Assembly (NCBI RefSeq): GCF_020171845.1
Contig: NZ_JAIVAM010000003.1
Span: 372,001-436,000, forward strand
Direction: 5' to 3'
DNA length: 64,000 bases
Origin: Cytobacillus kochii
GTDB lineage: Bacteria; Bacillota; Bacilli; Bacillales; Cytobacillaceae
Shown here: piece after piece, positions 5,519 through 20,191 of the stretch
Layout: every line of letters begins with the position of its first letter
Numbering within the stretch: position 1 is the stretch's first letter
Translations under genes and position numbers: made by a program
The notes under the pieces: generated by a model
What the model was told of the DNA's origin: nothing
Seen by the model: only the letters and a program-made list of their open reading frames with translations
Databases searched by the model: none

Positions 5519-5702
5519 AATGATAGCAAGGGGAGAGACTGCAGTGCTGCAGCGCCGAAGGAGCAAACAATCATCGTATTGTGAATCTCTCAGGCAAAAG
5601 AACACTTGCTTGACGCAACTCTGGAGAGAGCTCAAGGTAATAAGCGAGCCACCAAAGGGGAAAGGCTGCAATATCGCCGTAAACTCTCAGGTGAAAGGAC
5701 AG
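5519..5702 (+). ncRNA. Tandem glycine riboswitch
   Basis: Two glycine aptamers in series lie before gcvT. The first has ggggagagactgc, then gcgccgaaggagcaa, then aatctctcaggcaaaagaac. The second has ctggagagagctc, gccaccaaaggggaaagg, and aaactctcaggtgaaaggac. These are the conserved helices and junctions of the gcvT-type riboswitch. Glycine binding in known Bacillus members turns on glycine cleavage genes by antitermination. The terminator that follows shares the 3' bases of aptamer II, which fits that logic. Confidence 0.95.
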
Positions 5703-11828: not shown

Positions 11829-11894
11829 TTGACAAAATAAATATAACACAATATATAGTGTTATATTTTATAAAGTAGGTACTATATATTGATT
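11829..11894 (+). promoter_or_regulatory. Ribonucleotide reductase promoter with paired NrdR boxes
   Basis: TTGACA (11829-11834) is followed at 17 bases by TATATA (11852-11857), a good sigma-A promoter. The first NrdR box, ACACAATATATAGTGT at 11846-11861, covers the -10 and is nearly a perfect palindrome. A second, weaker box, GTACTATATATTGATT at 11879-11894, lies 33 bases away centre to centre, or about three helical turns. This is the paired-box spacing known for NrdR, which represses ribonucleotide reductase genes when dATP is high. Confidence 0.8.
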
Positions 11895-12006: not shown

Positions 12007-14887
12007 ATGTCTGTTGCTGTAGGACAAGAATTAAAGTTAAATGTTGAGAGGTTAAATGAGGACATCCGCTTATTTCCACAAGTGCATCCTATTACTCCAG
12101 AGATGAAATTAACCCATAAAGGTGTTTCCCGCCTAGTTATGCTTGATAGATATACATTTAAAGATACAGAAAAAGTAACGTTATCTGAAGGTGACTTTGT
12201 TGTTCTAACGATTAAGGAGGATCCGAAGTTTCCTGCGCGAGGTTTAGGGTACATTGTAGAGATTGATTGGGAAAATAAAAAAGCAGTTGTACAAGTTGAA
12301 CAAGATTATCGCGGTGTACTCGATACACAAGAAGAGATAGAAACGGGAATCATTGTACGTTCTTTAGACGTTATAGAGAAGCCATTAGAAGTGTTTTACG
12401 AGCAAATTGCTAAGCGCAATGCCACAGGATTAGCTTCGGTTGAGAAGACTGAAGAAAAACAGAAAGAATGGTTTGAAAAGTTTTATCAGGAATTAGCTGA
12501 TTTGAACTTTATTCCAGCTGGTCGTGTCTTGTATGGTGCCGGTGCTGATACTGAGGTTACATACTTTAATTGCTATGTAATGCCGTTTGTACAAGATTCT
12601 CGTGAAGGTATCTCAGAGCATCGTAAACAAGTCATGGAAATCATGTCTAGAGGTGGCGGTGTTGGAACGAATGGTTCGACATTAAGACCGCGTAATACAC
12701 TAGCGAAAGGAGTGAATGGGAAATCTTCCGGATCTGTTTCTTGGTTAGATGATATTGCGAAGTTAACACATCTCGTTGAACAAGGTGGTTCAAGAAGAGG
12801 TGCGCAGATGATAATGTTAGCGGATTAATTGATGCTGTAGTCCGCGTCATTCAAACCAATGAATGACTAGAAAATCGGGTGAATTGCGGGGATATCCTGT
12901 TAAAGGCAAAACTGCTACAACGTGACTGGCAACGGTGAGCGTGAACGCTATAAAAAATGTTTTGCATGGGACAATCCGCAGCCAAGCGCCACTGGGCATA
13001 GGTAGTGGTGAAGGTTCAACGACTAGAGAGTGAGCCCCAACAATAAACTCTCAAATAGCGCCCGGCCCCTATAAAGGGTGATGATATAGTCTAGTCCGAC
13101 TGCTAAGAGCAGTGTAAATATCCTGAAAGGGACGGTAGTTAACGTGGCATCCTGATATTATTGAATTTATTATTTCTAAAATGCAAAATCCAAGAATTCT
13201 TCGTTTCTTACTTGAAAATACGGAAGATGAGACAATTAAACGTTACGCTAAGGAAAAACTAAAATTCACTCCATTTACAGAGCAAGAGATTGCCATGTAT
13301 CAAGGAATAATTAATTATAAAACCATTCCAGGTTTAGGTGGATTTAATGAGAAAATCATTAAAGATGCAGAAGAAAAACTATTAATAGGTGGAACATATG
13401 CTGTTCATAATTCTGAATTCCTTACTGGGGCGAATATTTCAGTTTGTTTAACGAAGGAGTTTATGGAAGCAGTTGAAAATGATGGTGAATATGAACTTCG
13501 TTTCCCAGATGTAGAGAGTTACGATCGTGAGCAGATGGATAACTACAACAAGCAATGGCATGAAGTTGGCGATGTGCGTGAATGGGAAAAGTTAGGTCAC
13601 GGTGTTCGTGTATATCGTAAAATTAAAGCAAAAGAGCTTTGGAACTTGATCAATATTTGCGCAACTTATTCAGCTGAACCAGGTATCTTCTTCATTGATA
13701 ACGCCAATGATATGACCAATGCGAAAAGCTATGGCCAAAAGGTAGTAGCAACAAACCCTTGTGGCGAACAGCCATTAGCTCCTTACAGTGTTTGTAACCT
13801 AGCAGCAGTGAACTTAGCTGAAATGGCTGACAAGGAAAATAAGACAGTTGATTTCGCAAAGTTGGCAAGAACTGTTGAGATTGGCGTACGTATGCAAGAT
13901 AATGTCATCGATGCTACACCTTATTTCCTTGAAGACAATAAAAAACAAGCTTTGGGTGAACGTCGAGTTGGCTTAGGTGTCATGGGTCTGCATGATTTAT
14001 TAATTTATTGTGAAACAGAGTATGGCTCAGAAGAAGGTAATGTATTAATTGACCAAGTGTTTGAAACGATTGCAACAACGGCTTATCGTGCGTCAGTAGA
14101 AATCGCTAAAGAAAAAGGTAGCTTCCCATTCTTAAACGGAGAAACAACGGAGGAAACGAACCGCTTAAGAAAAGCCTTTATCGAAACAGGCTATATGGAA
14201 AAGATGCCGGCTGATATCAAACAGGCAATTCTAGAAACGGGGATTCGTAATTCTCATTTATTAACAGTTGCTCCTACAGGTTCAACAGGGACAATGGTTG
14301 GTGTTTCTACTGGATTAGAACCATATTTCTCATTCTCTTATTTTAGAAGTGGTCGACTTGGTAAATTCATTGAAGTAAAAGCAGACATTGTTCAAGAATA
14401 TCTAGATCGTCACCCAGAGGCGGATCCTGAAAATTTACCAAACTGGTTTATTGCTGCAATGGATTTAGCTCCTGAAGCGCATGCTGACGTGCAATGTGTG
14501 ATTCAACGTTGGATTGATAGTTCCATAAGTAAAACAGTAAATGCGCCTAAAGGTTATAGTGTAGAACAAGTGCAAAAGGTGTATGAGCGTTTATACAAAG
14601 GTGGAGCAAAAGGTGGCACTGTATACGTGGATGGCTCAAGAGACTCTCAAGTATTAACTTTAAAAGCTGAAGAAAATTCTTTTGAAGAAGAAGCCTTAGA
14701 GAAGAAATCATCCACTAAACAGCATGTTGTCCTTGTTGATACCATCAATGACTTACGTTCAACTGATGTCACTATTGGATCTGAAGTTGGTAACACTTGC
14801 CCTGTCTGCCGTCAAGGGAAAGTGGAAGAAATCGGTGGCTGTAATACATGCACCAATTGTAATGCACAATTAAAATGTGGATTATAA
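12007..14887 (+). CDS. nrdJ: Class II, adenosylcobalamin-dependent ribonucleotide reductase, interrupted by a group I intron
   Basis: Exons 12007-12825 and 13145-14887 join in frame to 853 residues. Exon 1 carries the first redox cysteine in FNCYV (about residue 189) and the GGGVGTNGS loop. Exon 2 carries NPCGEQ (about 477-482), which holds the catalytic Cys and Glu, the APTGSTGT loop, and a C-terminal CPVC...CNTCTNC zinc-ribbon-like tail. The enzyme reduces nucleotides to deoxynucleotides using a radical from adenosylcobalamin, so it works with or without oxygen. ATG 12007 has AAGGAG eight bases upstream; an ATG at 11986 lies before that site. The upstream reading frame ends at TAA 12826-12828, the first intron codon. 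Confidence 0.93.
12826..13144 (+). ncRNA. Self-splicing group I intron (no endonuclease gene)
   Basis: The 319-nt insert has group I core elements in order: P (12881-12898), Q (acaatccgcagccaagc, 12971-12987), R (ggttcaacgactagag, 13013-13028) and S (gatgatatagtctagtcc, 13080-13097). P7 forms from gacta (13021-13025) and tagtc (13087-13091). P1 pairs GCGGAT at the exon 1 end with GTCCGC (12840-12845), giving the required U-G at the splice site. P10 pairs atgctg (12832-12837) with the first six bases of exon 2 (TGGCAT). The last intron base is G. A gagagt/actctc helix after R looks like P7.1 of subgroup IA. No ORF of useful length is present. Confidence 0.95.
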
Positions 14888-19963: not shown

Positions 19964-20191
19964 CAACTTGCTGCGTTGTTCGTTTGTATATGAAGTTTCA
20001 ACCTTTACGTTAATTGAGGGAGCTTAAGATCATAATTGAAATAACATGCCTACATTGTTTAGGACGTTAGGAAGATTATTGCAAGCACCCACCTGGTGGA
20101 GCAGGTATGAAACTCCATATAAATCGGCGGCAACAGCGGCTACTTGATTTACTAATAAAGACATTTGAGATGATTCTCAGATGTCTTTTTT
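19964..20191 (+). ncRNA. ssrS: Probable 6S RNA (SsrS-like)
   Basis: A stand-alone RNA gene with its own promoter and a strong terminator (agacatttgaga / tctcagatgtct plus T-run, 20159-20191). Its two ends pair: UCAA with UUGA, and GCUGC-GUUGUU (19970-19980) with GGCAAC-A-GCGGC (20129-20140). A second helix pairs AUAUGAAGUUUC (19988-19999) with GAAACUCCAUAU (20109-20120), with one mismatch. GUUCG and UCGGCGGCAAC flank the first helix, as in known 6S RNAs. 6S RNA mimics an open promoter and binds housekeeping RNA polymerase. The family call is from architecture only. Confidence 0.6.

Follow-up and report, generated by a model that had tools for sequence, protein, structure and literature searches.

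The stretch of Cytobacillus kochii DNA that we analysed, here called the window (64,000 nt), carries a chromosomal nrdJ gene for a class II (B12-dependent) ribonucleotide reductase, and this gene is split by a 319-nt group I intron (Table 1). Removal of the intron fuses MIMLAD to WHPDI and leaves 860 codons free of stops, and the spliced protein gives a full-length match of 1710 bits to NCBIfam NF005991 (vitamin B12-dependent ribonucleotide reductase), in agreement with an earlier note on this DNA, which had read an unbroken protein from the joined exons. The gene is likely to start at ATG 12007, which is preceded by AAGGAG; relatives start at the same place and have stop codons upstream of it. 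The spliced protein would thus have 853 residues and exon 1 would have 273 codons; if this start is right, so is the 273-residue fragment that the same note had derived for unspliced mRNA from the TAA at the head of the intron. Codon numbers of intron sites below refer to the 860-residue frame, from which 7 is subtracted to obtain protein numbering. The genome is close to that of Cytobacillus stercorigallinarum (L052), at 99% protein identity. Upstream of nrdJ lies the palindrome ACACAATATATAGTGT, the sole NrdR-box-like site in the window, where chance would give a mean of 0.30 matches at two mismatches or fewer; it may be a site for NrdR.

Table 1. Features of the nrdJ locus and of two ordinary RNA elements elsewhere in the window; paired strands of a helix are joined by "with"
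Feature	Position in window	Strand	Remarks
Glycine riboswitch	5520-5615		before gcv genes; ordinary
Promoter-like pair TTGACA/TATATA	11829-11861		upstream of nrdJ; -10 region covered by the palindrome
NrdR-box-like palindrome ACACAATATATAGTGT	11846..11861	+	perfect, 0 mismatches
nrdJ exon 1	12007..12825	+	273 codons; PF00317, PF02867; frame open from ATG 11986
P1 5' strand GCGGAT	12820..12825	+	in exon 1
Group I intron	12826..13144	+	319 nt; first codon TAA, last base G
12-codon in-frame match to same-site HNH endonuclease C-terminus, IDAVVRVIQTNE*	12828..12866	+	possible remnant
P10 5' strand ATGCTG	12832..12837	+	pairs with exon 2 TGGCAT, 13145-13150
Internal guide sequence GTCCGC (P1 3' strand)	12840..12845	+	invariant in 36 sequences
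P2 hairpin	12846..12867 (12846-12852 with 12861-12867)	+	double changes in 4/7 pairs
P3	12876..13064 (12876-12881 with 13059-13064)	+	manual assignment, covariation alignment
P4 (P and Q elements)	12885-12890 with 12975-12980	+	Rfam, covariation alignment
P5	12895-12897 with 12969-12971	+	P5 extension 12906-12965; whole P4-P5 region 12885..12980
P6	12981-12983 with 13013-13015	+	region 12981..13015
P6a	12988-12993 with 13004-13009	+	covariation alignment
P7 (R and S elements)	13021-13025 with 13087-13091	+	region 13021..13091
P7.1	13026-13031 with 13047-13052	+	covariation alignment
P8	13067-13069 with 13076-13078	+	covariation alignment
P9	13099-13104 with 13108-13113	+	double changes in 5/6 pairs; P9-P9.1 region 13099..13132
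P9.1	13121-13124 with 13129-13132	+	GAAA loop; double changes in 3/4 pairs
nrdJ exon 2	13145..14887	+	580 codons and stop
6S RNA gene	19965-20146		ordinary

The covariance search suggested in the earlier note matched the Rfam model for group I introns (RF00028) to positions 12816-13113 (model 1-253) with 64.5 bits, above the cut-off of 50 (E 4.6e-14), and the intron boundaries claimed there hold to the base. U12825, the base at the 5' splice site, pairs with G12840 (U.G), and G13144 closes the intron; both are kept in 36 relatives, and P1 and P10 mark the two splice sites with the pairings and last base that had been claimed. The first four P10 pairs are kept in most relatives and the last two in close relatives only. 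The P, Q, R and S elements were likewise recovered, the former two in P4 and the latter two in P7, within the conserved P3-P8 and P4-P6 core that defines group I, and a P7.1 hairpin between P7 and P3, itself with covariation, may point to the IA type. Helices P2 to P9.1 were assigned by hand and then scored on an alignment of the 36 same-site introns. Changes on both sides were seen in 28 of 77 base pairs, as against 13.0 +/- 1.8 after shuffling (none of 500 shuffles as high), and 93.1% of the alignment cells were able to pair, a share that fell to 35-40% when the partners were shifted by 1-3 columns. P3, P4, P6 and P7 are almost invariant, and the covariation lies mostly in P2, P5a, P6a, P9 and P9.1. 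Free folding recovers most of the helices; the folding energy is unremarkable (z -1.39) and was set aside as uninformative.

An intein was rejected because the insert stops at its first codon and 319 is not divisible by 3. As to group II introns, there was no RF00029 or RF02004 match in the window, and the insert ends are TAA...CG, not GUGYG...AY. The intron contains no open frame that reaches 60 codons and thus has neither the endonuclease gene of a homing intron, as had been noted before, nor the transposase gene of an IStron.

The gene is present in 185 of the 193 genomes of the window's family. The 96 interrupted genes and that of the window were compared by protein-to-DNA alignment allowing introns, and about 86 genes were uninterrupted. 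At least one group I-like insert was found in 95 of the 185 genes, giving 149 inserts at seven sites, after codons 270 (n=20), 271 (n=1), 272 (n=17), 280 (n=36, the site in the window), 487 (n=42), 657 (n=4) and 659 (n=29). All 149 begin after T and nearly all end in G, as read by an aligner that works in phase 0 only and favours T/G ends, so that the phase is assumed, although the junctions agree with one another. Rfam confirmed group I in a sample spanning sites 270, 272, 280, 487, 657 and 659. The comparison of relatives that the earlier note had called for thus finds the intron at exactly the same site in 36 nrdJ genes of the family, and eight or more further families of the order have the same site and flank. 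The single insert at codon 271 (L145, genome G064; 1239 nt), adjacent to sites 270 and 272, has a group I score of 33.1 bits, below cut-off.

Introns at both 270 and 280 leave an exon of 30 nt in 13 genes (L131, L136, L137, L138, L142, L146, L149, L173, L176, L178, L188, L196 and L205), against 3.9 expected, while 272 and 280 never occur together against 3.3 expected, both expectations being uncorrected for relatedness. In none of those 13 genes do both introns carry an endonuclease gene. L173 (G154:C1:2025446-2036066) has four group I-like inserts, after codons 270, 280, 487 and 659, three of which were found by Rfam, one of them below cut-off; its sister L155 has the 487 insert only. The protein encoded by full-length inserts differs among five sites: it is LAGLIDADG-like at 270, DUF559-like at 272 and HNH at 280, has no Pfam match at 487, and at 659 combines HNH with zinc-finger-like parts. 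The NPC cysteine (aligned to T. maritima NrdJ) lies one codon before site 487, a position that fits the preference of group I introns for conserved sites (PMC2814812). Group II introns of about 2.6-2.7 kb were seen in four nrdJ genes of the family, L206 and L207 (466/467), L184 (489) and L191 (533), with RF00029 confirmed in L206, L184 and L191. The gene also occurs on plasmids with introns at 272 and 487, in L003 (a 1.08-Mb plasmid of P. megaterium), L004 (V. halodenitrificans) and L005 (Rossellomorea), and plasmids could therefore carry those introns. In the Microcystis phage MaeS (L239), a class II reductase gene is 81% identical in DNA to a Bacillales exon over 113 nt, which is unexpected for the stated host.

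Each of the 36 occupied 280 sites reads GCG GAT before the intron and TGG CAT after it. In empty genes GCG accounts for 27 of 62 Ala codons, GAT for 39 of 103 Asp codons and CAT for 94 of 105 His codons, and the complete GCGGAT was found in 8 of about 105. Among phylogenetically independent pairs the P1 codons track occupancy 22.9 to 0 (median p 2.4e-7); the control codons at -8 and -7 have no link to it (p 0.29) and vary alike in occupied and empty genes. Equivalent fixation was seen at other sites, as TCC CGT (270), CGT GGT (272), TGT GGT (487) and ACG GGT (659). The fixed exon codons are those that P1 pairing demands, which argues that the introns are spliced. Bulk co-conversion of the flank was rejected as their source because the codons at -8 and -7 and most of their neighbours are as variable as in genes lacking the intron. 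Codon -5 (12811-12813), outside P1, is an unexplained exception: Ile is ATA there in 24 of 36 occupied genes versus 7 of 105 empty ones, and in independent pairs ATA is tied to occupancy (p 1.5e-5). Exon 2 and its counterpart in the nearest species are separated by 76 synonymous and 6 non-synonymous changes (dN/dS ~0.02), and such strong purifying selection downstream of the TAA argues that exon 2 is translated. Values of dN/dS against more distant species were discarded on account of saturated synonymous sites and a 3-nt indel that puts exon 2 out of alignment. Codon fixation and selection on exon 2 together point to real splicing, and the intron, a further example of a class already known, is very likely functional. 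With seven group I and three group II sites, and with introns that dictate paired synonymous codons, we think it somewhat probable that few protein-coding genes in the chromosomes of bacteria are as heavily colonised as nrdJ of the Bacillales.

Of the 36 same-site introns, 14 contain an HNH frame some 260 codons long, in the P1 loop between splice site and guide. I-PpoI is an example of an endonuclease whose gene lies in the P1 extension of a group I intron. The same-site nrdJ relatives likewise carry the gene between splice site and guide, but at site 280, unlike in those cases, the guide sequence itself codes for the last residues of the endonuclease, with the P10 strand also within its last codons. 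The intron of L195 retains only endonuclease residues 1-82 and 225-261, that of L148 the last 24 codons, and the remaining ones little or nothing. The tail IDAVVRVIQTNE* in the window was considered as proof of a lost endonuclease gene and rejected, since the same letters form P10, guide and P2; being needed as RNA, the tail alone does not prove gene loss in the window's lineage. Across the site, introns without the gene do not form a single clade (AU p 5e-96), and there are pairs of nearly identical cores of which one has it and the other does not (L130/L133, L137/L191). Repeated loss of the endonuclease gene would therefore fit these data, with gain possible at some steps.

On a tree of 137 nrdJ genes, site 280 needs 26 gains or losses, at least 25 of them on supported branches, and the intron lineage must thus have moved within the family. 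The nearest relative of an intron is the nearest relative of its gene in only 12 of 35 cases. The window's gene forms one clade (support 99) with those of C. stercorigallinarum, C. horneckiae and C. purgationiresistens, and the introns of these four also form one clade (88/82), all without an endonuclease gene; such concordance fits vertical keeping. The alternative posed in the earlier note, of an intron either vertically kept or moved in trans, is thus sharpened: vertical keeping fits the four-species clade, and the lineage as a whole has moved, with relatives that encode the HNH protein or remnants of it. Transfer of the site-280 intron by phage or plasmid was considered and rejected, no carrier having been found and plasmid-borne nrdJ having sites 272 and 487, not 280; among phages, plasmids and viral contigs nothing matched a site-280 endonuclease beyond short HNH or helix-turn-helix matches.

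The interpretation that we hold with high confidence from these comparisons is that of a self-splicing group I intron from a mobile HNH lineage, which would have come down vertically in the window's clade with its endonuclease gene gone. In the folded transcript the guide GUCCGC would pair with the exon end GCGGAU to form P1, guanosine would cut after U12825, and the freed exon 1 would attack after G13144 with P10 aligning exon 2, so that the ligated exons would give the complete NrdJ protein; ribosomes should be kept out of the intron by the TAA that opens it. The ancestor would have been a mobile intron of the same site with an HNH homing endonuclease gene in its P1 loop. The sequence, its fold and covariation, the site, the codon fixation and the relatives are shown here, and we infer that the RNA is catalytic in the cell, that the HNH protein brings about homing, and that the endonuclease gene was lost and not absent from the start; a host protein could be needed for splicing.

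The genome also encodes a class Ib reductase (nrdEF), so that splicing of nrdJ need not be essential, and with an unspliced mRNA that stops at once one might envision a decayed intron and a broken nrdJ. This seems very improbable, for all core helices are intact, exon 2 behind the stop has kept its dN/dS of ~0.02 against the nearest species, and the P1 codons are fixed in every occupied gene. Just as improbable is that the intron is a switch for NrdJ, with splicing regulated by, for example, B12, oxygen or guanosine supply. With a stop as its first codon, an intron left in the mRNA would amount to an off state, and nrdJ already has its NrdR-box-like site; within genera and among near-identical genes, however, the intron is present in some and missing in others, a pattern more in keeping with a parasite than with a regulator, and Rfam found no riboswitch adjoining the intron. 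It is unlikely, if less so, that the species of the window acquired the intron directly by horizontal transfer and did not inherit it: the many changes on the gene tree and the frequent disagreement between nearest intron and nearest gene would favour such an event, but the matching clades of four genes and four introns, all lacking the endonuclease gene, speak for inheritance.

Group I introns in reductase genes as such have long been known. More than 100 were curated in RNRdb by 2009 (PMC2795772), and some of them may sit in nrdJ. Split reductase genes of phages have been reviewed (PMC3653736), and nrdE, nrdF and recA have been named as Bacillus hosts of group I introns (PMC3984707). The nrdE-nrdF introns of Bacillus and its phages (SPbeta, the B. 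cereus group; phage Twort nrdE; PMC3984707, PMC3653736) are likewise group I introns in a reductase large-subunit gene of Bacilli, several of them with endonuclease genes, but their hosts are class I genes, often of prophages or phages, whereas the window intron occupies other sites in a class II chromosomal nrdJ. Introns of Bacillus, Enterococcus and Staphylococcus phages are 72-76% identical to it over ~105-146 nt of core, in other host genes and with no full-length match. Meng et al. in 2007 reportedly described a group I intron with an insertion sequence in a bacterial ribonucleotide reductase gene; the window intron is also of group I in such a gene, but without an insertion element. In the open-access literature we found no description of nrdJ intron sites or of a hotspot there. 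Contig C8 of the same genome (L002 and L209) holds a phage-like gene for DNA polymerase III alpha that has a group I intron and a LAGLIDADG ORF; about 15 kb from it are an nrdE with an intein-like insert and an nrdF, which suggests a prophage or plasmid with many mobile inserts.

Taken singly, the intron is well formed and unexceptional for a class already known, and it is the seven-site hotspot with measurable codon control that specialists may not expect. For annotation, intron-split nrdJ genes are liable to be called fragments or pseudogenes, and the codon signature offers a way of telling spliced from dead introns using genome data alone. The family thus provides a natural experiment, in which one gene for making DNA precursors has its seven group I sites empty or filled across ~190 species. 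With endonuclease genes that are full, half-deleted or absent, the proposed cycle of gain, decay and loss of homing introns becomes testable in chromosomes.
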